Source: Myxococcota bacterium (GTDB taxonomy: Bacteria; Myxococcota_C; UBA6777). From it: 64,000 nucleotides of DNA. The position numbers and the translations under genes were made by a program. The notes under the pieces are model-generated. The model was not told the origin of the DNA, made no database searches, and saw nothing but the letters and a program-made list of their open reading frames with translations. The stretch spans positions 62,001 to 126,000 of the forward strand of contig JAKLKB010000004.1 in assembly GCA_023150835.1 (NCBI GenBank), given 5' to 3'. Shown here in pieces: positions 5,236-63,753 of the stretch. Positions within the stretch are counted from its first letter, which is position 1, and the number at the start of each line of letters is the position of its first letter.

Positions 5236-5684
5236 CCTGAATACTCCTGTTGTCCGTAAGGCGGCGAGTCCTCTCGCCTGAATCATGGGCCTTCTTCATT
5301 GATTGTTTTCGTCACTGCGTTCAAAAATGTTTCTTTGCTTTTCAAGGGCTTATTTGTGTTCCTATCCAAAAACAAGGAGATGCCTTTGCAAAATTGAACA
5401 CGTTCTATTTCTGCTCGCCCGCATTCTGCGTTCGTGCGTGATCGTTTGTGGCGATCATGTGTCGACTCGGCCTCGGTTTTGCCATCCTTTTTGTTTCCGT
5501 CCCCCCATCCACTTGTCACCCTTGCGTCAAACTTGGCCTCTATGTTTCGCGCCGAAAAAAGAGAGCATCCTGAAGTCCTTTGATTTTGGATGGTTTTTCG
5601 CGTGTTGTGCAAGCCATGTGCGGCGATCCTTGATCATGGAGCAAGCAAAAAGCTTTGCGACATAAACCAAAAGGAGCAAGCAAG
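5236..5684. other. Divergent intergenic region
   Basis: 449 bases between the divergently read hydrolase and beta-helix lipoprotein genes, so promoters for both should lie here. No clear sigma-70 hexamer pair was found. A short perfect inverted repeat TGATCG-N7-CGATCA sits at 5439-5457 and could be an operator. I see no gene here. Confidence 0.4.
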
Positions 5685-7106
5685 ATGAAAGCATTTTCTG
5701 GTATGAGATGGCTGTCTTTTGTGAGTATCTTGTGTTTTTTGTACGGAACTACTTTGACTGGATGTCCGGCAACGACGAACACGGAAAAGACCAGCGAACC
5801 GACAGGCGATGGGGGCAATCATCCCGACGGTTCAGGCGGGCGCACGGTCAACGAAAACTGCAACGGAAAGATCTGCACCCTTGAGGGCAAATACACCAAC
5901 GATATCGAACTGAAAGCCGATACAGAATACCTCATCAAAGGCGGCGTCTTTATCGGCCAAGACAGCAAAGATCCGAGCGGCGAGATCAAGGCCACCCTCA
6001 AGATCGAAGCAGGGACCAAGATCTATGCGGATACTGCAACCAAAACCTTTTTGACCGTCGTGCGCGGTTCCAAGATCCTCGCCGAAGGAACGAAAGAAAA
6101 GCCGATCATCTTCACTTCAGCCGCCGAAAAAGGCAAACGCGCCCCCGGTGACTGGGGCGGGATCATCCTCAACGGCAAGGCCAAACTCAACGCCGGAAAA
6201 GAAGCCGAAGGAGAAGGCGGCACAGGCTTTTATGGCGGCGAAGACGATGCCGACAACAGCGGCACTTTGCGCTATGTTCGCATCGAATACGGCGGAAAAC
6301 AGATCACAGGAACCAACGAACTCAATGGCCTCGCGCTCCAAGGCGTCGGCAGCGCAACCACCCTCGAATATATCCAGATCCACATGACAAAAGATGACTG
6401 TATCGAATTCTTCGGTGGTACGGTCAACTTCAAGTACATCCTCTGTACAGGAACGCAAGACGATGGATTAGACTGGACGCAAGGATGGCGTGGAAAAGGT
6501 CAGTTTTTTGTCAGCCAGTTTTACAAAAACGCCGGAAATCACGGCATCGAAGCCGATAACCTCGAAGACGACAACACCGCAACACCACGTTCCAAACCGA
6601 TACTCTCGAATCTGACGTTTATCGGCCACCCTGAATCCGCCGAAGAAGGCTCTGGGATGCTGTTGCGTCGCGGAACAGGGGCCAATATCTCGAATGCGGT
6701 CGTGGTGGGATGGAAAACCTCTTGCTTTACACTAGACAGCCCAGAAACGTTCAAAAATGCGTGGAACAACGGAAAGTTAAGCGGCGATCTCACTGTCACA
6801 AACTCTTACTTTTCTTGCGCAAAACTCGTCAGCGAACCCAAGCCCGACAAAGTCCCCTCCCCCGAATTCAAAGTCGAAGAATTTCTCAAAGCCCTCAACA
6901 GCGACAACAAAACAGACGATCCGATGCTGACGTATGATCCCGCCCAAGACAAAGCACCGGGTTGGCTGCCCAAAGAAGGCTCGCCTGTACTTTCCGGAGC
7001 CAAGATCCCAAGCGATGGCTTTTTCAAACAAGTCTCCTTTGTGGGAGGCGTCGGTCGCGGCGCAGACGATTGGACCCAAGGCTGGACCACCCACGAAGAA
7101 AACTAA
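5685..7106 (+). CDS. Lipoprotein with right-handed beta-helix-like fold
   Basis: About 473 residues. The N-terminus is a lipoprotein signal (MKAFSGMRW, hydrophobic stretch, lipobox LTGC), so the protein should be lipid-anchored. The body contains ILAEGTKEKPIIFTS followed by APGDWGGIILNGKA, a sequence typical of large parallel beta-helix surface proteins in Bacteroidota and Myxococcota. Later strands (YVRIEYGGKQ, DGLDWTQGWRGKGQFF, NHGIEADN, ISNAVVVGWKTSCF) fit helix coils. The ATG at 5685 is preceded by AAGGAG; a TTG-initiated extension to 5655 would put that site inside the gene. No catalytic motif was seen; a structural, binding or polysaccharide-related role is possible. Confidence 0.75.
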   Translation: MKAFSGMRWLSFVSILCFLYGTTLTGCPATTNTEKTSEPTGDGGNHPDGSGGRTVNENCNGKICTLEGKYTNDIELKADTEYLIKGGVFIGQDSKDPSGEIKATLKIEAGTKIYADTATKTFLTVVRGSKILAEGTKEKPIIFTSAAEKGKRAPGDWGGIILNGKAKLNAGKEAEGEGGTGFYGGEDDADNSGTLRYVRIEYGGKQITGTNELNGLALQGVGSATTLEYIQIHMTKDDCIEFFGGTVNFKYILCTGTQDDGLDWTQGWRGKGQFFVSQFYKNAGNHGIEADNLEDDNTATPRSKPILSNLTFIGHPESAEEGSGMLLRRGTGANISNAVVVGWKTSCFTLDSPETFKNAWNNGKLSGDLTVTNSYFSCAKLVSEPKPDKVPSPEFKVEEFLKALNSDNKTDDPMLTYDPAQDKAPGWLPKEGSPVLSGAKIPSDGFFKQVSFVGGVGRGADDWTQGWTTHEEN

Positions 7107-7167: not shown

Positions 7168-7932
7168 ATGATACAGCTTCGTCGATGGGTGTGTGGCAGT
7201 GTGTGGCTCTATGGATTGTTCTATTTTTTCCTGCGATCTCAAGCTTTTGCAGAAAGCTCTTTGGCGGTCGAATTGGCTCGACTTCGCGGTGAAGTGGAAG
7301 CCTTGGCAAGCCAAATCGAAGAAAAAAAAGAACATGTGCGCAATCAATTGCGCTCTTTGTCGATGCAACGAAGCGCGCTGGCACTCTCGCTTGACAAAGA
7401 GCGTTTGCGCTTGCGTGCGTTGATGCGACAAATCTCGACACAACGGGCGCGGGTGGCCTCTTCGAAAAAAGAAAGCGAAGAACTTGTATCGGTCGCCAAA
7501 CAAGCCGCCGCTCTTCTTCAAGCACAGATCGCTCGCTCTTTGCCTTTTCGTCTAAAAGAACGTACAGAAGTGATCGAACAAATCCAAAAACAACTTCAGC
7601 TCAAGCTGATCACTTCGCACCAAGCACTCGCTCGACTTTGGCAGGCCGCAGAAGATGAACTGCGGCTTGGCAAAGAAAACGGCCTTTACAACCAGACGAT
7701 CACGCTTGAGGGAAAGGCTCGTCTTGTTCAAGTGGCACGGTTGGGCATGATCTTGTTGTTCTTTAAGACACGCGACGGACGCTATGGAGCCGCCCAGCAA
7801 AAAGGGCAGACGTGGGTCTTTGAAACCTTCCGCTCTCCAGAACAAAACAAACAGGTCGAGGCGCTGTTTGATGGCCTCAAAAAGCAGATCCGATCGGGCT
7901 TTTGGACGATCCCAGACATCTTGCCGCGTTGA
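7168..7932 (+). CDS. DUF3450-type periplasmic coiled-coil protein of a TonB system
   Basis: About 254 residues. A signal peptide (MIQLRRW, hydrophobic core, SQAFA) is followed by a long heptad-like helix (LARLRGEVEALASQIEEKKEHV onward) and a compact C-terminal half (KARLVQVARLGMILLFFKTRDGRYG, FRSPEQNKQVEALFDGLKKQIRSG). This matches the DUF3450 family, which in proteobacteria is coded beside TtpC/ExbB2/ExbD2/TonB2 systems, exactly as here. The likely role is a periplasmic partner of the TtpC-like protein downstream. The start at 7168 is chosen because it begins a proper signal peptide; a longer frame runs back into the preceding lipoprotein gene. Confidence 0.8.
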   Translation: MIQLRRWVCGSVWLYGLFYFFLRSQAFAESSLAVELARLRGEVEALASQIEEKKEHVRNQLRSLSMQRSALALSLDKERLRLRALMRQISTQRARVASSKKESEELVSVAKQAAALLQAQIARSLPFRLKERTEVIEQIQKQLQLKLITSHQALARLWQAAEDELRLGKENGLYNQTITLEGKARLVQVARLGMILLFFKTRDGRYGAAQQKGQTWVFETFRSPEQNKQVEALFDGLKKQIRSGFWTIPDILPR

Positions 7933-7964: not shown

Positions 7965-9428
7965 ATGCGGCGTAGTGCCTTGGTGTGGTGTGGTTGGATG
8001 GGATGGTGTCTTGTGTTCGTCTTTTCCCAGAAAGCCTACGCAGAAGATGCCTTAACAGAAGCATACAAAAAAGAGTTTGCTTTTTTACAAGCGCAGAAAA
8101 CATCTCTTCAAAAACGACTGTTTCAATTAGAAAAAACCTCCGAACAACGTCTCCGCCAAACCAAGGCACGCATCCTCCAAGCCCAAGGGCAACTGTTGCA
8201 CGCTCAAGAACAAGTCGGAAAACTCCAGCAAGCCTTGCAGATGGCCGAGCAATCGGCTCAAAAAGTCGACGAACAAAAAGAGCAACGCGACAAGATCACA
8301 GAGCGCGGCTTGTTGGCTCTACGCGAGGGCGGGCTTGCGATCGACGAAGACGCCCAAAAGCAGAAAACACAAGAAGCCCTCTGGATCGAGATCTTCCGCC
8401 GTGTGTCCTTGCTGCTTGATCGACAAGGGCAAATACGCAAAGAAAAAAGCCGATTTTTCTTACGCGATGGAACCCAAGACACAGGGGATCTGATCCACCT
8501 CGGCCAGATCGCCAGTTTCGCCATCAGCCCACGCTTTCAGGGCGCGCTGGCTCCCGCAGGCGGAGGCCAACTCAAAGTCTGGCCTCAAGATGCCGCCACC
8601 ACCGCGCAAGCTCTGTTTAAAAATTTGCAAACCAAAGACATCAGTCTTTTTCTTTATGAGAATCGAGAAAAAGAAGCCCAGTGGAAAGAGCAACAAACTC
8701 TCTATGCGTGGCTCGATAGTGGCGGCAGCATCGCGTGGGTGATCGTTTGGTTGGGGGCTGCGGGTGCGCTTTTGTTGTTGTTGCGCCTGTTGATCTTGGG
8801 GTGGGCCACGATCCACATCCCCTCTTTGCTGTACAAAGTCGAAGAACGTGTCTTACGCGGCGAAATCAAAGAAGCTTTAGAGATCGTGCGACGTTATCGC
8901 GGTCCTGTCGCAAGAGGATTGGAAACGACGCTGGTACACTTGGACAAACCACGCAGCCAAGTCGAAGAACAATTCGACGAGTGTATGTTGCGCGAAGCCC
9001 CGAAGATCGAGCGATTTGGAACAGCGCTTGGCGTCACAGCAGCGGTGGCCCCGCTGCTTGGGCTTTTGGGAACTGTGACCGGGATGATCGCCACTTTCAA
9101 CGTCTTAACAGAACAAGGCGCAGGTGATCCCAAAGCCCTCGCAGGCGGCATCTCCGAAGCCTTGATCACAACAGAACTGGGCTTGCTCGTGGCGATCCCA
9201 GCTTTGTTGCTGGGCACCTTATTGTCGGGCTATGCTTCCCGTCTGCTCGGCCAGATGGAATGGGCCAGCCTCCATCTCCTTAACGCTATCCAAAATCAAG
9301 CCGCTTCTTTTCCTGAAACAACGATCGACCGAGAAGACTCCATCGATATAACAACAAGCCAAGAATCTTCTTTTGATCTGCCTTCCAAAGCCAAATCTTA
9401 TTCGCCAGATGCCTATGCTTCTTCTTGA
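7965..9428 (+). CDS. TtpC-like MotA/TolQ/ExbB proton channel protein with periplasmic coiled coil
   Basis: 487 residues. Signal peptide (ending KAYA), an N-terminal coiled-coil periplasmic region (about 25-260), a membrane helix (SIAWVIVWLGAAGALLLLLR), then the ExbB/TolQ core with VAPLLGLLGTVTGMIATF and GGISEALITTELGLLVAIPALL. This is the architecture of TtpC, the extra channel-like subunit of TonB2 systems, which links the inner-membrane motor to the periplasm. GAGGAAAG sits upstream of the ATG. It lies 32 bases after the DUF3450 gene and belongs to the same operon. A pair of repeat elements separates it from the next gene. Confidence 0.85.
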   Translation: MRRSALVWCGWMGWCLVFVFSQKAYAEDALTEAYKKEFAFLQAQKTSLQKRLFQLEKTSEQRLRQTKARILQAQGQLLHAQEQVGKLQQALQMAEQSAQKVDEQKEQRDKITERGLLALREGGLAIDEDAQKQKTQEALWIEIFRRVSLLLDRQGQIRKEKSRFFLRDGTQDTGDLIHLGQIASFAISPRFQGALAPAGGGQLKVWPQDAATTAQALFKNLQTKDISLFLYENREKEAQWKEQQTLYAWLDSGGSIAWVIVWLGAAGALLLLLRLLILGWATIHIPSLLYKVEERVLRGEIKEALEIVRRYRGPVARGLETTLVHLDKPRSQVEEQFDECMLREAPKIERFGTALGVTAAVAPLLGLLGTVTGMIATFNVLTEQGAGDPKALAGGISEALITTELGLLVAIPALLLGTLLSGYASRLLGQMEWASLHLLNAIQNQAASFPETTIDREDSIDITTSQESSFDLPSKAKSYSPDAYASS

Positions 9429-9439
9429 TAAAAACCTGA

Positions 9440-9598
9440 TGCAAAATCCGCAGACTGTGTGATCGGCATCTGTAGGGGCAGCCCCCCGTGGCTGCCCAAG
9501 AATAGGACATCGGTAGCGATATGCAAAATCCACAGGCTGTGTGATCGGCATCTGTAGGGGCAGCCCCCCGTGGCTGCCCAAGAATAGGACATCGATAG
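9440..9598. repeat. Two tandem family-1 repeat elements inside the TonB operon
   Basis: Two nearly identical units of about 77 bases begin at 9440 and 9522 (period 82). Each contains TGCAAAATCC, then TGTGTGATCGGCATC and the palindromic core GTAGGGGCAGCC..GTGGCTGCCC. The core is shared with elements at 17545, 42708, 44317, 45043, 50798, 62500 and 63637. Transcripts of the operon would carry two strong hairpins here, which could tune expression of the ExbB-ExbD gene against the TtpC gene. Confidence 0.85.
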
Positions 9599-9670: not shown

Positions 9671-10786
9671 ATGAATCTGACAGCCTTTTTTCATTCTACC
9701 CAAGCCTACCTCCACCAAGGGGGGCTTGTGATGTGGCCGTTGGCGGCGGGTGCTTTTTTGCTTTGGTATGCGCTGGGCTATCGCTTTTTGACTTTACGAC
9801 GTGGGACATGGCGCTCTTTGGAGAGCTTGATCAAACAAGCCTTGCAACAGCCTACTCGCCCAACGCATGGTGTGATCGATACGGCTGTATGGAAAAGCGT
9901 ACAGATCAAGAGAACATTTTCGCAAACATCGCTTCGTCAAAAACTGGATGAAGAGATGGAACCTTTTTTACGCGAAATCGAACGTTTTGGACTATTGATT
10001 CAAGTCATCGTCGTTGTCGCTCCGTTGGCGGGGCTGTTGGGAACGGTGACGGGCATGATCGAAACCTTCGATGCACTCGGCGAGATGTCGCTTCACAGCC
10101 AGTCTGGAGGCATCGCGGGCGGCATCTCTCAAGCGCTGTTGACGACACAAATGGGCCTTTCTGTCGCGATCCCGGGGCTGATCATCGGCCAGTTGTTGCG
10201 GCAAAAACAGATCAGCTTATCCAACGAGATCGAACGCCTCAAAGAGCTTTTGTGCGCGTGGCCTCTCTCACTTCCACCGCTGCCCTACGGATCGCAGCCG
10301 TTCCACGCAGCAGCTTCATCGATCCATACGCAAGATCTCACACAATTACCTTTTCAACGTGAAGAAGCCTCTACTACAAAACGAAAAAAAAATCGACGCT
10401 CAAGCACTTCTCCTGCCATCGATATCTCTCCGCTGATTGATATGGTGTTTATTTTGCTGATCTTTTTTATGGTCTCCACCACGTTTGTCAAAGACATGCA
10501 GATCGCGCTCAGCCGCCCCGCCCAAAACAGCGCAAGCACGGCATCCATCAAAGCCATCCGCGTGCTCCTTGACGCAAAAGGCGGGATATCGATGGAAGGA
10601 AACACAGTCCAAGCATGGATGCTACAAAGTCGCCTACGTGCCTTGCGCAAAGAACAAGCCGATCGCCCTGTCTTGGTGATCACCCATCGACTTGTACGCA
10701 CCGAGCGCTTGATCGAGATCGTCGATCAATGTCGCCTTGCGGGTGTCAAAGACGTCGGCGTCTCCAAAGCCGAAGAAGCAGGTTAA
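9671..10786 (+). CDS. Natural ExbB-ExbD fusion protein
   Basis: 371 residues. Residues 1-215 are a complete ExbB/TolQ subunit: membrane helix GGLVMWPLAAGAFLLWYALG, then VVVAPLAGLLGTVTGMIETF and GGISQALLTTQMGLSVAIPGL. A basic Ser/Thr-rich linker follows. From about residue 250 there is a full ExbD subunit: IDISPLIDMVFILLIFFMVS with the proton-relay Asp, then a periplasmic domain. In known systems ExbB and ExbD are separate and assemble as five to two, so a 1:1 fusion alters stoichiometry unless the free ExbD downstream or the TtpC-like subunit compensates. The stop is 6 bases before the next exbD. Confidence 0.85.
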   Translation: MNLTAFFHSTQAYLHQGGLVMWPLAAGAFLLWYALGYRFLTLRRGTWRSLESLIKQALQQPTRPTHGVIDTAVWKSVQIKRTFSQTSLRQKLDEEMEPFLREIERFGLLIQVIVVVAPLAGLLGTVTGMIETFDALGEMSLHSQSGGIAGGISQALLTTQMGLSVAIPGLIIGQLLRQKQISLSNEIERLKELLCAWPLSLPPLPYGSQPFHAAASSIHTQDLTQLPFQREEASTTKRKKNRRSSTSPAIDISPLIDMVFILLIFFMVSTTFVKDMQIALSRPAQNSASTASIKAIRVLLDAKGGISMEGNTVQAWMLQSRLRALRKEQADRPVLVITHRLVRTERLIEIVDQCRLAGVKDVGVSKAEEAG

Positions 10787-10792
10787 ACAAAG

Positions 10793-11194
10793 ATGCGTCG
10801 AAGGCGTACAACAGGAGAGATACAGATCGACATCTCTCCGCTCATTGATATGGTGTTTATTTTGCTGATCTTTTTTATGGTCTCCACCACGTTTGTCAAA
10901 GATATCAAAGTCGAGTTAGAACGCCCCAACGCTGCGAGCGCAGCACGTGCTTCGACCAAGGCTTTGCGCGTCCACATCGATCGCGGCGGTGCCGTTTACG
11001 TCGACGGAGCCACGATCTCTTTGTCGGCGATGGATGGGCGTGTGCGTCAGCTTTTGCAAGAAGACAAAGCTCGCCCGGTCTTGATTATGGCTGATCGGCT
11101 TGTGCATGCAGAAAAACTCTTGGACGTGGTGGACAAGTGTCGCCTTGCTGGAGCAAGAGATATCGGCATCGCTACGCAAGTGACAGAACCTTAA
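10793..11194 (+). CDS. exbD: ExbD/TolR-type biopolymer transport protein
   Basis: 133 residues. Short basic cytoplasmic N-terminus, a single membrane helix with the family Asp (IDISPLIDMVFILLIFFMVS) and a periplasmic domain with DKARPVLIMADRLVHAEKLLDVVDKCRLAGARDIGIAT. It works with ExbB-type channel proteins to pass proton-motive force to TonB. It starts 6 bases after the ExbB-ExbD fusion. A 77-base stretch over the membrane helix is almost identical at DNA level to the ExbD half of the fusion, while the rest has diverged. Confidence 0.9.
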   Translation: MRRRRTTGEIQIDISPLIDMVFILLIFFMVSTTFVKDIKVELERPNAASAARASTKALRVHIDRGGAVYVDGATISLSAMDGRVRQLLQEDKARPVLIMADRLVHAEKLLDVVDKCRLAGARDIGIATQVTEP

Positions 11195-11220: not shown

Positions 11221-11874
11221 ATGCGCCGTTCTCTCTTTCCTTTTTTTCGACAGATCGGAGCGTTGGCCGCGATGTGTTTGGGCGGCTTTTCGATCTTGGG
11301 CCTGATGGTGGCGATGAACGTGGACCAAGCTCCCAAAAAGACGGCCTCTTCCCAAAAAGCGCAACACTTCGATCTTCAGCCTCCCCGCCGTCGCCCTCCG
11401 AAACGCAGCACGCCTCGAACCCGCCCACGCCCCCGCCCTGCCACACCAACGCCACGCGCACCCATGCCTCAACTCGCCGCTCATCTCTCAGGATTCAGCT
11501 TTGGGATCCCCGGCCTTACCCACACAGGCATCGAAGAGGCATCAAACCGTCTACTCGGCCAAACCACCGACGCCTCCAAGCTTGTGATGACAGAAGATGC
11601 CGTCGATACGCCGCCACAAGCAATCCACCGCGTCGCAGCCGCATATCCCCCACGCGCACGCGCACGCAATCTCACAGGCCACGTCAGACTCCGTCTCTTG
11701 ATCGATGCTCACGGAAACGTTCAAGAAGCCGAAGTGATCGAGGCCCAACCCACAGGCGTCTTTGAACAATCCGCCCTCACCGCCATCCGCCAATGGCGGT
11801 TCTCTCCCGCGCTCTACAAAGGAAAAGCTGTTCAACTGCGCGCCACCCAAACCATTCAATTCACCTTGGAATAA
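11221..11874 (+). CDS. tonB: TonB energy transducer
   Basis: 217 residues. One N-terminal membrane helix (GALAAMCLGGFSILGLMVAMNV), a Pro/Arg-rich spacer (RPRPRPATPTPRAPMP) suited to spanning the periplasm, and a C-terminal TonB domain with AAAYPPRARARNLTGHVRLR and FEQSALTAIRQWRFSPAL. It contacts the TonB box of outer-membrane receptors and delivers energy from the ExbB/ExbD proteins coded just upstream. TTGAGGAGG precedes the ATG. The large receptor at 13604 is the likely client. Confidence 0.9.
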   Translation: MRRSLFPFFRQIGALAAMCLGGFSILGLMVAMNVDQAPKKTASSQKAQHFDLQPPRRRPPKRSTPRTRPRPRPATPTPRAPMPQLAAHLSGFSFGIPGLTHTGIEEASNRLLGQTTDASKLVMTEDAVDTPPQAIHRVAAAYPPRARARNLTGHVRLRLLIDAHGNVQEAEVIEAQPTGVFEQSALTAIRQWRFSPALYKGKAVQLRATQTIQFTLE

Positions 11875-12047: not shown

Positions 12048-13277
12048 ATGTGTCCTTCCTTTTTCAACCACGTCACTCCTGCGCAAAGTAAAGCGAGATG
12101 CTTTTTAGGAGCGCCACTTCGGTATGGAGTCTTGCTGTGCTTGTTCTTTCAGATCACAAGCCTCCACCAAAAAGCTCATGCCAAAACTCCCTCAAAAAAC
12201 CAAGTCGACCGCCTTGCACTCGCCGCATTGTTGATCAAAGATGGACACTTTGACCGTGCGGATGCCGTTTTGTCTGAAATCGACTTACGCCAAAAAAATG
12301 TTTCTCTTGCACGTTATTATAGCCTTCGAGGAGCCATCGGCTTACATACAAAAGCTTATGTCAAAGCAGCCCTTTACCTTAGAAAAGCCGTCGAGCAAAA
12401 GGGCGTCGATCCGATGGTGTGGCTGTTTTTGGCGCAAGCCCGTTTTCAATTGGGACGTTATGCCAAAGCCCTTGAGGCGCTGCAACACGCTCCCCCTCAA
12501 GCCTTCAACCTCGGGGGGACTTTGCTGTTGCAAGCGCAATCTCTGTGGAAACTCAAGCGCTTTCATGCAGCGTATCAAGCCATCGAACAAGGCTCGAAGC
12601 GTTTTTCCAAAGAAGATGGATTCCTTCGATTAAAAGTATTGTGGTTATTAGAAAAAAACCTGATTGAACAAGCCCACGTTCTCGGATGGCATTATCTACA
12701 GGCTCCGAGGCGAAGTGCGGAGGATCATCTGGGATTGGCCGAAGCCATGCGGCGACGTAAACAACCGTCGTATGCGGCCTTGTGGCTTGAACAAGCCCTC
12801 CTTCGCTTTCCGAGTCATCCACAAATCTTGATGCTCTTAGCACGTTGCTACCTCGAAAACAGAAAAACCCTGACCGCAGCGATCTTTTTGGAACGTGCCG
12901 CCCAAAAAGACCGCAAGCTACTCGTCGAGGCAGCAGAGTTGTATCGGCGTGCAGGGCAGCCTTGGAAAGCGTTGTATCTCAATGCGCAAGTGGCCGATCA
13001 AAAGGCCAAGATCAAACAACGACTGGGGTTGCTAATCGAGATGAAGCGGTATGAAGAGGCCGCTGTGATGGGGTCTCGGTTGTCGCGCCTCGATCTGCTT
13101 GAAGATCAGCGCGTGCTTTATGCCCTCGGTTTTGCGGCTTTTCAGATCGGGCGCTACAAAACAGCGCATTCTTGGCTCGCGCAGATCACCGACCCATCGC
13201 TCTTTCAACGCTCCATCGCTTTGCGCAAAACCATGCAAAGCTGCCTCAAAGAACAAGAAGCTTGGTGGTGCCCATGA
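12048..13277 (+). CDS. Secreted TPR-repeat protein of the TonB cluster
   Basis: About 409 residues. After a signal-peptide-like segment (GVLLCLFFQITSLHQKAHA) come repeated helix pairs of TPR type, for example LALAALLIKDGHFDRADAVLS, LRGAIGLHTKAYVKAALYLRKAV and FLAQARFQLGRYAKALEAL. TonB2 loci in other bacteria also carry a TPR protein next to tonB, so a scaffolding or assembly role in the periplasm is likely. No good ribosome binding site is visible. The ATG at 12048 is chosen as the first in frame after the repeat element and before the signal peptide; a frame running back into tonB is unlikely to be used. Confidence 0.7.
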   Translation: MCPSFFNHVTPAQSKARCFLGAPLRYGVLLCLFFQITSLHQKAHAKTPSKNQVDRLALAALLIKDGHFDRADAVLSEIDLRQKNVSLARYYSLRGAIGLHTKAYVKAALYLRKAVEQKGVDPMVWLFLAQARFQLGRYAKALEALQHAPPQAFNLGGTLLLQAQSLWKLKRFHAAYQAIEQGSKRFSKEDGFLRLKVLWLLEKNLIEQAHVLGWHYLQAPRRSAEDHLGLAEAMRRRKQPSYAALWLEQALLRFPSHPQILMLLARCYLENRKTLTAAIFLERAAQKDRKLLVEAAELYRRAGQPWKALYLNAQVADQKAKIKQRLGLLIEMKRYEEAAVMGSRLSRLDLLEDQRVLYALGFAAFQIGRYKTAHSWLAQITDPSLFQRSIALRKTMQSCLKEQEAWWCP

Positions 13278-13603: not shown

Positions 13604-16600
13604 ATGTATGACATCAAAAGCCTCGCGATACCTCGATGGGTGTGGTTTGAGTGGAAAATTCTCTGGATTTCGCTTGGCCTTGCCTTTTGTACTCCGCTCA
13701 ACGCCTACGCAAAAGCCTCGCAAGAAACGGGCGTCTTGCGGGGAATCGTCTTTGAAAAAGAGACAGGGCGGCCCTTACCCGAAGTGTGGGTCGGCATCCA
13801 AGGCTTCTCCGCCCAACAGACAGATCGAGACGGTGCTTATTGGTTTCGTCTGCCTACGGGTCATCATCGCCTTCGCCTTTGGGGAAAGGGGATCGCACAA
13901 CGCATTACAAAGCCGATTCCTGTTCTCAAAAAAGAAGTGACTGAAGCTCTTTTAACGATTTTTCTGAAAACAAAAGAAACAAATACCTCGATTGAAACTG
14001 CGATTCGTCACTACCGAACTCATCAAAAAAGCCTTTCGACTGAATTGACGATCTCTGTAATCGGGCGAGTGCAAACAGCAAAAACCAACCAGCCGATCGC
14101 CAAGGCGCAGATCTTTGTCAAAGGGCAGACAGAGGAAGCCGAAAGCCTTGTGGATGGGACGTTTACACTGCGCTTGCCGCTTGGCGAACATCTGCTCACG
14201 GTGATCCATCCGTCCTATTCGACGACACGCAAACAAGTCGCGATCCGCCGCAAGATTCCGCCCATTGTGTTTTCCATGATGCCGGCCTCGATCCAACTTC
14301 AGACATTCACTGTGTCCGCGCCTCGAATCATCGGAAATACAGATGAACTTATGAAGCAACGACACCAAGCCTCCGGTGTCGCCGAGATGCTTGGTGCGGA
14401 GCAGATGGCCAAGTCGGGCGATAGCAACGCCGCTGCTGCGCTTCAACGCGTTTCTGGTGTGACGATCGTGGGCGGGCGTTTTGTGTATGTGCGCGGCCTT
14501 GGAGACCGCTACGCAAGCACCCTCTTCAACGGCGCGACCTTGCCGAGTCCTGAGCCTGAAAACCGCGTCATCCCGCTGAACTTGTTTCCCTCGGGCATCC
14601 TCGAAAAACTGGTGATCGAAAAAACGTATATGCCCTACCTTCCTGCTGAATTTGGTGGTGGTTCGGTCCAGTTGTTTACAAGATCTTTTCCCAAAAAATT
14701 CCACGCCGCTTTATCCCTTCAAGTCGGCTACCGCCAAGGTACGACCTTCGAGCAAGGGCAGCATTATAACGGCGGCGGATCAGACTTTTTAACACTCGGA
14801 CTGCCTACACGCGGCCTGCCTCAAGAAGTACGAAAAGCCTCTGAAAAAACCTTGCTTCTCCCACAAAATCGATTCAATCCAGAAGTGGGTTATCCACGCG
14901 CTGAACTGGAGCGGTTTGGCGAGCTTTTGCCCAATGTATGGAACACGCAAAGCACGCTGATTCCGCCCCAGATCAAGCTCTCGGCGACTCTTGGAGATTC
15001 TTTCTCTCTAGGCGGCGAGACGCGAACAGGTTATTTTCTGTATCTTAATTACGACAACAACTGGCAACATCGCGTACATGAAGAAAATGCTTTTGAAAGA
15101 CAAAATGTGCTGAAACTGTATTTTCTTGGCGCAAGAAAAAAGCTGGAATTAAACAACGATTACAAGCTTACGCAGCTTGAAAATGGGATCAATCTCGGTG
15201 GGATGTTGGTCTGGGGGATCGCGTTTGGAAGCGCGCACAAACTTCGCTTGACCTCGTTGCTCAATCGCATCGTGTCGAATGAAACGCGCATCGTCGAGGG
15301 CTACAACGCCAACGTGCTTGGCGATATCCGTTTGACGCGGTTTCGTTGGATCGAGCAAACGCTCAGTTCAACGCAACTTTGGGGCGAACATATCCTCTCC
15401 AAAACCAGCGGGTTCACGCTATCATGGCGCTACACCTATTCTTTGGCTCTGCGTGCCGAACCTGATCGGCGGGAAACGCGATACGATAAAACGGCAGAAG
15501 GCACCTATCAACTGTCTGATCTACCAGAAGGCAATCTGCGCTTTTTTTCGGATCTGCTCGACAACAACCACGATCTCGCGGTCGACATGAAACTGCCTTT
15601 TCGCCAATGGTCAGGGCTTCAAGCCGAAGCGCGCTTTGGTGGGCTATTTGCCTACAAAGATCGCAACGTCGACACGCGCCGCTATAAGTATCAAATGCGC
15701 GGAGATGCGAACATCTACCGCTCTCCAGACCTGATCTCGCAATCCCCCGAATCGATCTTTTCTCCCAAACATATCAGCCCTGATGGATACCAATTCGAGG
15801 AGATCACTCGCGAAACCGACAACTACCGCGCACGCCAATACATCGGTGCGATGTATCTGATGGCCCGCCTTCCGCTGCTCAATACGCTGCGCTTGGAAGG
15901 CGGAGCGCGATTCGAGTACAGCACACAAGACGTCGAGACGTTCGAGCTCTTCCGCCCCAACAAAACCCCGATCCGTTCAGCCCTTGTGACGCCAGACCTT
16001 TTGCCTGCGCTGTCTCTTTCGTGGGAGATACGACCGAATATGGTCTTGCGTGGCGCAGGAGCGATGACGGTTTCAAGACCAGACTTTCGTGAGCTATCTC
16101 CTGCAACTTTTGACGCTGTTGCAGGTGGACGACAGCTTTTTGGGAATCCGAATCTTGAACGTGCTTTGATCACCCATGCGGATCTACGTTGGGAGTGGTA
16201 TCCAGAAAGCGGTGAGTCATTGTCGATCGGCTTGTTTTACAAGCACTTTTATCGACCGATCGAAACCAAGCTGATCGTCAGCGCCAACCAATCGATCACC
16301 TTTGCCAACGCCGATGGCGGCGCAAACAACGTCGGCGCAGAACTGGATTTTCGCAAACGGCTCGGCTTTTTGCATGGCTTTTTGCGCGATATCTATGTGG
16401 CCGGAAACCTTACCTTGGTCTGGTCGCAGATCCAGCTACCCGCCGAGAGCATCGAAACCAACAAGATCCGCCCGATGCAAGGCCAATCTCCCTATGTGAT
16501 CAACTTGGCCGTCGGCTATGACAACGCCGATACGGGGACTTCTGTGGCCCTTCTGTACAACGTTTTTGGGCCGCGCATCGCGGAAGTCGGCGCAGACGGC

Positions 16601-16798
16601 ATCCCCGATACATACGAAGAACCCTTCCATCAACTCGATCTCGTGATCCGACAACGCTTTGCACAACGCTGGCTTCTGACGTTTCGCGCAAGAAATCTGA
16701 TCAATGCCCCCAAGATCTTCACCCTCGGCGATCAAGTCGCCCGCCTTTTTTACCGCAACCGCGATCTGACCCTCAGTCTCAGCTACACCTTCGATTAA
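13604..16798 (+). CDS. TonB-dependent outer-membrane receptor with two regulatory-like domains
   Basis: 1064 residues. Long signal peptide (ending about NAYAKA), then two carboxypeptidase-regulatory-like domains (about 42-115, GVLRGIVFEKETGRPLPEV; about 148-220, VIGRVQTAKTNQPIAKAQIF). The plug domain spans about 240-360 (ALQRVSGVTIVGGRFVYVRG, FGGGSVQLFTR). A 22-strand-type barrel follows, ending in LTLSLSYTFD with the usual terminal aromatic residue. It should import a large ligand such as a metal chelate, polymer or peptide across the outer membrane using the TonB complex coded upstream. Two N-terminal domains rather than one are less common and could contact a partner. The ligand cannot be told from sequence. 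Confidence 0.9.
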   Translation: MYDIKSLAIPRWVWFEWKILWISLGLAFCTPLNAYAKASQETGVLRGIVFEKETGRPLPEVWVGIQGFSAQQTDRDGAYWFRLPTGHHRLRLWGKGIAQRITKPIPVLKKEVTEALLTIFLKTKETNTSIETAIRHYRTHQKSLSTELTISVIGRVQTAKTNQPIAKAQIFVKGQTEEAESLVDGTFTLRLPLGEHLLTVIHPSYSTTRKQVAIRRKIPPIVFSMMPASIQLQTFTVSAPRIIGNTDELMKQRHQASGVAEMLGAEQMAKSGDSNAAAALQRVSGVTIVGGRFVYVRGLGDRYASTLFNGATLPSPEPENRVIPLNLFPSGILEKLVIEKTYMPYLPAEFGGGSVQLFTRSFPKKFHAALSLQVGYRQGTTFEQGQHYNGGGSDFLTLGLPTRGLPQEVRKASEKTLLLPQNRFNPEVGYPRAELERFGELLPNVWNTQSTLIPPQIKLSATLGDSFSLGGETRTGYFLYLNYDNNWQHRVHEENAFERQNVLKLYFLGARKKLELNNDYKLTQLENGINLGGMLVWGIAFGSAHKLRLTSLLNRIVSNETRIVEGYNANVLGDIRLTRFRWIEQTLSSTQLWGEHILSKTSGFTLSWRYTYSLALRAEPDRRETRYDKTAEGTYQLSDLPEGNLRFFSDLLDNNHDLAVDMKLPFRQWSGLQAEARFGGLFAYKDRNVDTRRYKYQMRGDANIYRSPDLISQSPESIFSPKHISPDGYQFEEITRETDNYRARQYIGAMYLMARLPLLNTLRLEGGARFEYSTQDVETFELFRPNKTPIRSALVTPDLLPALSLSWEIRPNMVLRGAGAMTVSRPDFRELSPATFDAVAGGRQLFGNPNLERALITHADLRWEWYPESGESLSIGLFYKHFYRPIETKLIVSANQSITFANADGGANNVGAELDFRKRLGFLHGFLRDIYVAGNLTLVWSQIQLPAESIETNKIRPMQGQSPYVINLAVGYDNADTGTSVALLYNVFGPRIAEVGADGIPDTYEEPFHQLDLVIRQRFAQRWLLTFRARNLINAPKIFTLGDQVARLFYRNRDLTLSLSYTFD

Positions 16799-42709: not shown

Positions 42710-42824
42710 TACGAAATCCGCTCGTTGTGTGATCGTAAAAATGTAGGAGCAGCCTCCTGTGGCTGCCCAAGCACAGGGCGTCTACGCGCTCGCCTTCGAT
42801 CACAGATCACTCGGATATCGTATA
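42708..42824. repeat. Family-1 repeat element, forward, with both ends
   Basis: Starts ATACGAAATCCG, then TTGTGTGATCGTAAAA, the core GTAGGAGCAGCCTCCTGTGG, and ends CGGATATCGTAT. The ends are inverted repeats of each other. The first bases overlap the TAA stop of the histidine kinase. Bases 42825-43092 hold nothing further that I recognise except the ribosome binding site of the next gene. Confidence 0.85.
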
Positions 42825-45042: not shown

Positions 45043-45170
45043 TTATACGATATCCGAAAGATGTGTGCTCGAAGGGCAGCTGCGATCCGCTGTAACTGCC
45101 CTGTCCTTGGGCAGCCACAGGGGGCTGCCCCTACGTTTTACGATCACACAATGGGCGGATTCCGTATTAT
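45043..45170. repeat. Family-1 repeat element, reverse
   Basis: From TTATACGATATCCG to GGATTCCGTATTAT, with the core GGGCAGCCACAGGGGGCTGC and TTTTACGATCACACAATGGG. It lies between the divergent sodN and darT genes. Bases 45171-45342 show no gene. Confidence 0.85.
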
Positions 45171-50797: not shown

Positions 50798-50919
50798 ATT
50801 ATGAAATCCGCCCATCGCGTGCGCCGACACGTAGGGGCAGCCCCCTGTGGCTGCCCAACCATAGGGCGTCTACAGCGGATCACACCTACCCTTCGTGTAC
50901 ACTTCTCTCGGATATCGTA
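50798..50919. repeat. Family-1 repeat element, forward
   Basis: ATTATGAAATCCGCCC at the first base after the PLD-like gene's stop codon, core GTAGGGGCAGCCCCCTGTGG, end CTCGGATATCGTAA. Confidence 0.85.
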
Positions 50920-62502: not shown

Positions 62503-62617
62503 TACGGGATCCGAAAGATCTGCGATCGTCGGATCGTGCGTAAACGCCCTGCTATCGGGCAGCCACTTGTGGCTGCACCTACCTCTTTACGATCACACAA
62601 CGGGCGGATTTTGTAGA
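62500..62617. repeat. Family-1 repeat element, reverse
   Basis: GATACGGGATCCG, core CGGGCAGCCACTTGTGGCTG, TTTACGATCACACAACGGGC and end GGATTTTGTAG. It follows the truncated family-B element and lies before the sigma-factor stop. Confidence 0.8.
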
Positions 62618-63636: not shown

Positions 63637-63753
63637 ATACGCGATCCGAGTGATGTGTACACAAAGGAGAGTACCTAGACGCCCGATTATAGGGCATCCC
63701 CCTGTGGCTACCCCTGCCTTTCACGATCGCACAACGGGCGGATCTCGTATCAC
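63637..63753. repeat. Family-1 repeat element, reverse
   Basis: CATACGCGATCCG, core GGGCATCCCCCTGTGGCTAC, TTTCACGATCGCACAACGGG and end GGATCTCGTATCACT. It lies about 50 bases upstream of the sigma-factor start. The rest to 63929 shows nothing else. Confidence 0.8.

Follow-up and report, generated by a model that had tools for sequence, protein, structure and literature searches.

Ton motors run on protons and drive nutrient uptake, with ExbB as their ring and ExbD as their axle. Known Ton motors have the composition ExbB5ExbD2 (PMC12905483). How could such a motor be assembled from a protein that carries one ExbB and one ExbD in the same chain? This question is raised by a 64-kb stretch of DNA from a Myxococcota bacterium (hereafter, the window), in which an earlier note, made from the sequence alone, had pointed to one open frame holding a complete ExbB and a complete ExbD, to a separate exbD 6 bases after it and to a surrounding DUF3450/TtpC/TonB cluster. 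The analysis described here argues that the fused gene is real, conserved and derived, and suggests how its product might be accommodated in a motor.

A single frame encodes ExbB and ExbD within a TonB2-type operon

The operon and the parts of the fused gene are as follows.

7168..7932, + strand: TtpB-like DUF3450 protein (Pfam DUF3450, E 6.1e-22; ORF from 6934, start at 7168 estimated)
7965..9428, + strand: TtpC-like protein, 487 aa, with an N-terminal region and a C-terminal ExbB-type channel domain (Pfam)
9671..10786, + strand: ExbB-ExbD fusion gene, 371 aa (single ORF; Pfam MotA_ExbB and ExbD; AF2 model)
9671..10261, + strand: ExbB half, residues 1-197, three TM helices (alignment, AF2, Foldseek)
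10262..10408, + strand: linker, residues 198-246, disordered, cytoplasmic (pLDDT about 50)
10384-10392, + strand: run of nine A (A9) in the linker, the sole A9 of the window
10409..10783, + strand: ExbD half, residues 247-371, TM helix with D257 and periplasmic domain (Pfam, AF2, Foldseek)
10793..11194, + strand: free ExbD, 133 aa (Pfam ExbD, E 1.9e-28)
11221..11874, + strand: TonB (Pfam TonB_C, E 5.5e-21)
12048..13277, + strand: TtpD-like TPR protein (Pfam TPR families; ORF from 11793, start at 12048 estimated)
13604..16798, + strand: TonB-dependent receptor (Pfam Plug and TonB_dep_Rec; TIGR01782 under its cut-off)

The fused gene is one ORF with no stop or frameshift inside, and Pfam finds both domains in it, MotA_ExbB (PF01618) at residues 78-188 (E 2.9e-23) and ExbD (PF02472) at residues 245-365 (E 8.4e-24). 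The frame that the earlier note had read is therefore borne out, as is the separate exbD, the ORF at 10793-11194, which follows after a gap of 6 bp. The ExbB half matches the profile of the ExbB/TolQ/MotA channel family and has its three TM helices and pore Thr; T125, Q154 and T159 align with T148, E176 and T181 of E. coli ExbB. The ExbD/TolR profile matches both ExbD copies, and the TM helix with an Asp and the periplasmic domain of that family are present, D257 of the fused copy aligning with the TM Asp of E. coli, D25.

An AF2 model built with 30 sequences has a mean pLDDT of 82.8 (a model with three sequences only was poor, at 51.9). Both halves are confident in this model, with values of about 90 and above over most of residues 1-200 of the ExbB part and a confident ExbD periplasmic part, and the region from about 200 to 250 is disordered. 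Foldseek finds separate matches for the two parts, TolQ/ExbB for the one and the ExbD periplasmic domain for the other, the latter with rmsds of 1.7-1.9 to 8vgc and 8pek. In both families, the ExbB C-terminus and the ExbD N-terminus are cytoplasmic; thus, a covalent link between them is topologically allowed. We regard it as near certain that 9671-10786 is a real fused gene.

The flanking genes are those that the earlier note had recognised, coding for TtpB/DUF3450, TtpC, TonB_C and TPR proteins and a TonB-dependent receptor. Their order is that of the six-gene Vibrio TonB2 system, ttpB-ttpC-exbB-exbD-tonB-ttpD (PMC6957404), plus one extra exbD, and the same six-gene order is annotated in Pseudoalteromonas. 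The window operon thus shares all six components of Vibrio TonB2/TonB3 (TtpB-TtpC-ExbB2-ExbD2-TonB2-TtpD; PMC6957404), in the same order, but Vibrio ExbB and ExbD are separate, whereas here they are fused, an exbD has been added and a receptor gene lies downstream. Separate ExbB and ExbD proteins are a trait of the TonB2 type; since the two share a single frame here, we file the operon as a TonB2-type variant and not as a typical member.

Other features were seen around these genes. A 483-aa protein whose N-terminus is lipoprotein-like, and for which neither Pfam nor NCBIfam gave a match, is encoded at 5655-7106, and ORFs of similar size occupy the same site upstream of ttpB in two related genomes, KLAP109 and NP119. 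The gap between ttpC and the fusion contains two tandem units of 82 bp (9439-9598); in KLAP109 this gap is only 37 bp. The window also contains a dispersed, REP-like palindromic repeat, GGGGCAGCCCCC-N3-GGCTGCCC, with 11 matches over both strands at seven places (9475-9497, 9557-9579, 42746-42768, 45109-45131, 50834-50856, 62557-62579 and 63691-63713) and none expected by chance.

The fusion is conserved and both halves are under purifying selection

The earlier note had proposed a search for the fused gene in related genomes, and it was found in two independent relatives. KLAP109, labelled a Myxococcota MAG and of the same genus, carries the same fusion at 89% identity; NP119, labelled a Deltaproteobacteria MAG and of another genus of the same family, carries it at 58% identity. 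All three frames are free of stops between the halves. The fusion is therefore conserved across two genera, on a narrow base of three MAGs from one small family. Between the window and KLAP109, dN/dS (NG86, own script) is 0.073 for the ExbB half, 0.083 for the fused ExbD half and 0.067 for the free ExbD. The linker is relaxed, at 0.465, with no indel and the frame kept, and in NP119 it is shorter than in the window. These values show strong purifying selection on both halves of the fusion.

Could the fusion have been created by a sequencing or assembly error, through an indel in the A9 run or the collapse of a repeat? The A9 run lies in the linker, exactly where an indel error would split a gene, and the TM-coding stretches of the two exbD copies are near-identical. 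However, the same frame is read in an independent MAG that also has nine A (KLAP109) and in NP119, whose linker lacks any A run. Reshuffling of the assembly through the TM-coding stretches was considered as well and rejected, because a single direct repeat with unique flanks has one order only and its parts cannot be reordered. Finally, the window offers no usable start codon from the A9 run up to the ExbD TM helix; the conserved ExbD half can therefore be translated only within the fusion, and yet it is under purifying selection. An artefact is almost certainly the wrong explanation.

The fused ExbD half might alternatively be a decaying passenger, with the free ExbD doing all the work. Indeed, ancestral residues retained by the free copy, for example in ELERP and YVDG, have changed in the fused one. 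Against this stand its low dN/dS, its retained TM Asp and its confident fold, as well as the situation in NP119, where the other ExbDs belong to distant subfamilies and none is of the subfamily of the fusion. Such decay is extremely improbable.

One channel position differs from E. coli in all three fusions (3/3), which have Gln (Q154) where E. coli ExbB has Glu176. We considered whether this change marks a dead ExbB in need of TtpC and rejected the idea, as unfused relatives have E, Q, K or G at this position and some TtpCs have I or Q. Because position 176 varies in this way across TtpC-type systems (E, Q, K, G or I), it is not defining for the family, and nothing is concluded from Q154.

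The fusion is rare in its subfamily and derived

A profile that combined the three fusions with seven pairs joined from unfused operons was used to search 386 genomes, mostly of unrelated families, with the best five candidates per genome scored. Among the matches listed, both domains are covered in a single frame by more than 75 ExbB/ExbD pairs. Only three of these, in the window, KLAP109 and NP119, are stop-free, the halves of all the others being separated by one stop or more; in-frame matches in other phyla were thus discarded as candidate fusions, a stop being found between the genes. Scans of 284 Myxococcota-group and 321 gammaproteobacterial genomes at a strict threshold, at which distant fusions could be missed, gave no further stop-free pair. 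Rarity is therefore established for this ExbB/ExbD subfamily, not for all ExbB/ExbD, and no description of a natural ExbB-ExbD fusion was found in the literature searched.

The closest unfused relatives come from Nitrosomonas, Sulfurimonas/Sulfuricurvum, Bdellovibrionales and others, and have separate genes in the order TtpC-ExbB-ExbD. The genome of the window itself contains a second, unfused TtpC operon (contig C5, L042), common to KLAP109 and related to one in genome G004. This operon was examined as another possible fusion and set aside: its exbB and exbD (L042:4827-5936) are in the same frame, but about 200 bp and four stops lie between them. The unfused operons of Nitrosomonas, Sulfuricurvum, Bdellovibrionales and contig C5 are the closest in sequence to the window operon and share its gene order; unlike it, they have a stop codon and a separate ExbD start between the genes. 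Since the closest relatives are unfused with the same gene order, the fusion is the derived state. It would have arisen when two adjacent genes, exbB and exbD, were joined through loss of the stop between them.

These comparisons also bear on whether the fusion is a precursor, cut by a protease in its disordered linker so that the parts assemble as ordinary ExbB and ExbD. The disorder and rapid evolution of the linker (dN/dS 0.465) would suit such cleavage, but no conserved cleavage motif was seen among the linkers of the window, KLAP109 and NP119. Moreover, a stop codon is a simpler route to two proteins, and it is kept in more than 75 other in-frame pairs among the matches listed. We consider processing of this kind very unlikely.

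Each lineage has a candidate second source of free ExbD

The free exbD of the window operon is also present in KLAP109 but absent from NP119, where TonB starts at the stop of the fusion. In the fused frame of NP119, however, an in-frame ATG at residue 215 (L045:5899, in region L045:5860-5960) aligns exactly with the starts of unfused ExbDs (MRFR, MRYS, MRRF...). It is preceded by a Shine-Dalgarno (SD) sequence, GGAG, with a 7-nt spacer, and the predicted anti-SD duplex of -6.6 kcal/mol compares with -6.1 for both TtpC and TonB; among 60 further internal ATGs of the NP119 operon, 13% have a duplex of equal strength. These features are suggestive only, and it may be that translation in NP119 also begins internally, at the ancestral exbD start, to yield free ExbD. 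There is a precedent in SctQ of type III secretion, where SctQC is made from an internal start in some species and from a separate gene in others (PMC8553256). SctQ resembles the fusion in that a C-terminal domain is made both within a long protein and alone. It is an unrelated protein, and its internal start is proven, whereas that of NP119 is only predicted.

In the genus of the window, the ancestral internal ATG has been lost and the fusion is followed by a separate exbD that starts in a similar manner (MRRRR...). Each lineage would thus have a second source of free ExbD, the separate gene in the window genus and the candidate internal start in NP119. In an ExbD tree, the fused and free copies fall near NP119, and the tree is compatible with an origin of the free copy either before or after the NP119 split. 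We infer an ancestor with dual output, whose two products came to be divided between the copies after a duplication.

The free exbD has diverged from the fused copy, its partner, but their TM-coding stretches still match. These stretches (10418-10495 and 10826-10903) are 96% identical in DNA, with a synonymous difference of 0.175, and the rest of the two genes is saturated, with a synonymous difference of 0.66. Gene conversion confined to the TM helix would produce such a pattern, a reading that is tentative given the few sites.

The A9 run offers a possible route to ExbB alone

In the window genus, the A9 run might cause transcriptional slippage or -1 frameshifting and so give a share of ExbB-only protein, in which case ExbB, ExbB-ExbD and ExbD would all be made and the usual 5:2 ring could form. 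The position of the run fits this idea: it lies inside the linker, is the only A9 in 64 kb and is also present in KLAP109, and both shifted frames, reached by a one-base slip in either direction, stop within 25 codons, to give an ExbB-only product of 254-263 aa. Across the genome there are 130 A9 hits in 7.56 Mb, overlapping ones counted; read in frame as A AAA AAA, the run also forms a slippery heptamer for -1 shifts. Nine A in the Thermus thermophilus dnaX gene give rise to subunits of two lengths, 50% of the product being the short form (PMC1088944). As in dnaX, nine A stand in frame and slippage would shorten a subunit of the same complex, but the genes are unrelated, and slippage is shown for dnaX and only a candidate for the fusion.

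Several observations weaken this reading. The Lys codons of the fusion gene are AAA by 14:1, so the run may be incidental; shuffles predict about 2.7 A9 runs in the window; and the run is absent from NP119. An RNA structure that could stimulate frameshifting was sought downstream of A9 and none was found (z about 0). Tuning of the subunit ratio by slippage is unlikely. Taken together, the candidate internal start in NP119, the A9 run in the window genus and the diverged free exbD suggest that the system may be other than strictly 1:1.

A proposed mixed motor with TtpC in the ring

Free ExbD in addition to a 1:1 fusion shifts the ratio away from 5:2 still more, and only another protein in the ring could redress this. 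Besides the fusion, TtpC alone among the proteins of the operon is of the ExbB type, and it keeps the pore Thr and Glu (T, E and T at E. coli positions 148, 176 and 181); hence we propose it as the ring filler. The earlier note had expected a 1:1 fusion to assemble differently from ExbB5ExbD2, which may be so, and had suggested that TtpC could supply extra channel subunits; its interpretation is partly supported. The part of the TtpC suggestion that stands is an intact ExbB-type channel domain that could fill the ring; that it does so is our proposal, and no report of TtpC and ExbB co-assembling in one ring was found in the literature searched.

Our preferred reading, to which we give slightly less than an even chance, is that of a functional TonB2-type (TtpB/C/D) energiser operon with a fused exbB-exbD, the product of which enters a mixed 5:2 motor with TtpC supplying most of the ring. 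We infer the stoichiometry from the components encoded. TtpC channel domains would form most of the pentamer, the fusion would take the remaining position or positions and bring one tethered ExbD, and free ExbD would complete the axle dimer. The simplest 5:2 sets would be TtpC4 + fusion1 + ExbD1 and TtpC3 + fusion2. TonB and TtpB/TtpD would pass the force to the neighbouring receptor.

In comparison with the E. coli ExbB5ExbD2 motor (PDB 6TYI, 9DDO; PMC12215075, PMC12905483), both halves of the fusion are homologous and the channel Thr and ExbD TM Asp are kept. In contrast, the E. coli subunits are separate, with no TtpC and a free choice of 5:2, and the fused ExbB has Q at the position of E176. 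A ring made of fusions alone can also be envisaged, with a pentamer of five fusions in which two of the ExbD TM helices occupy the pore and three are pushed aside or disordered, and with TtpC working elsewhere in the system. The occupancy of ExbD is plastic, with E. coli ExbB:ExbD preparations of 5:1, 5:2 and 6:3 (PMC12905483), and the linker is long and flexible. However, extra ExbD helices that cross the membrane with an Asp exposed would come at a cost, and such a ring would account neither for the further source of free ExbD nor for the channel residues kept in TtpC. We rate it as decidedly unlikely.

Within the mixed motor that we favour, how the fusion is placed would affect how the axle can move. 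A single tether of 33-50 residues at the cytoplasmic tip of the axle would hold an ExbD in every motor and leave rotation unblocked. To our knowledge, rotation of the Ton motor has not been directly observed. Under the rotary model (PMC12215075; PMC9389320), two tethers would braid and one could swivel, so that a pair made of a tethered ExbD and a free one would be favoured. We therefore put forward, as a tentative possibility that is doubtful on balance, an asymmetric built-in axle in which one ExbD is tethered to a ring subunit and one is free, TtpC paralogues make up most of the ring, and an ancestral gene with both outputs, which NP119 would still display, was divided by duplication in the window genus into a fusion-only gene and a free exbD.

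Where ring and axle are covalently joined in nature, the join dictates which subunits are neighbours and limits the possible motions. If the fusion works uncut, it would constrain the stoichiometry of the motor, give TtpC a role and allow rotation to be tested by the number of tethers. If true, the asymmetric axle with one tether would provide a natural means to learn whether the Ton motor rotates.
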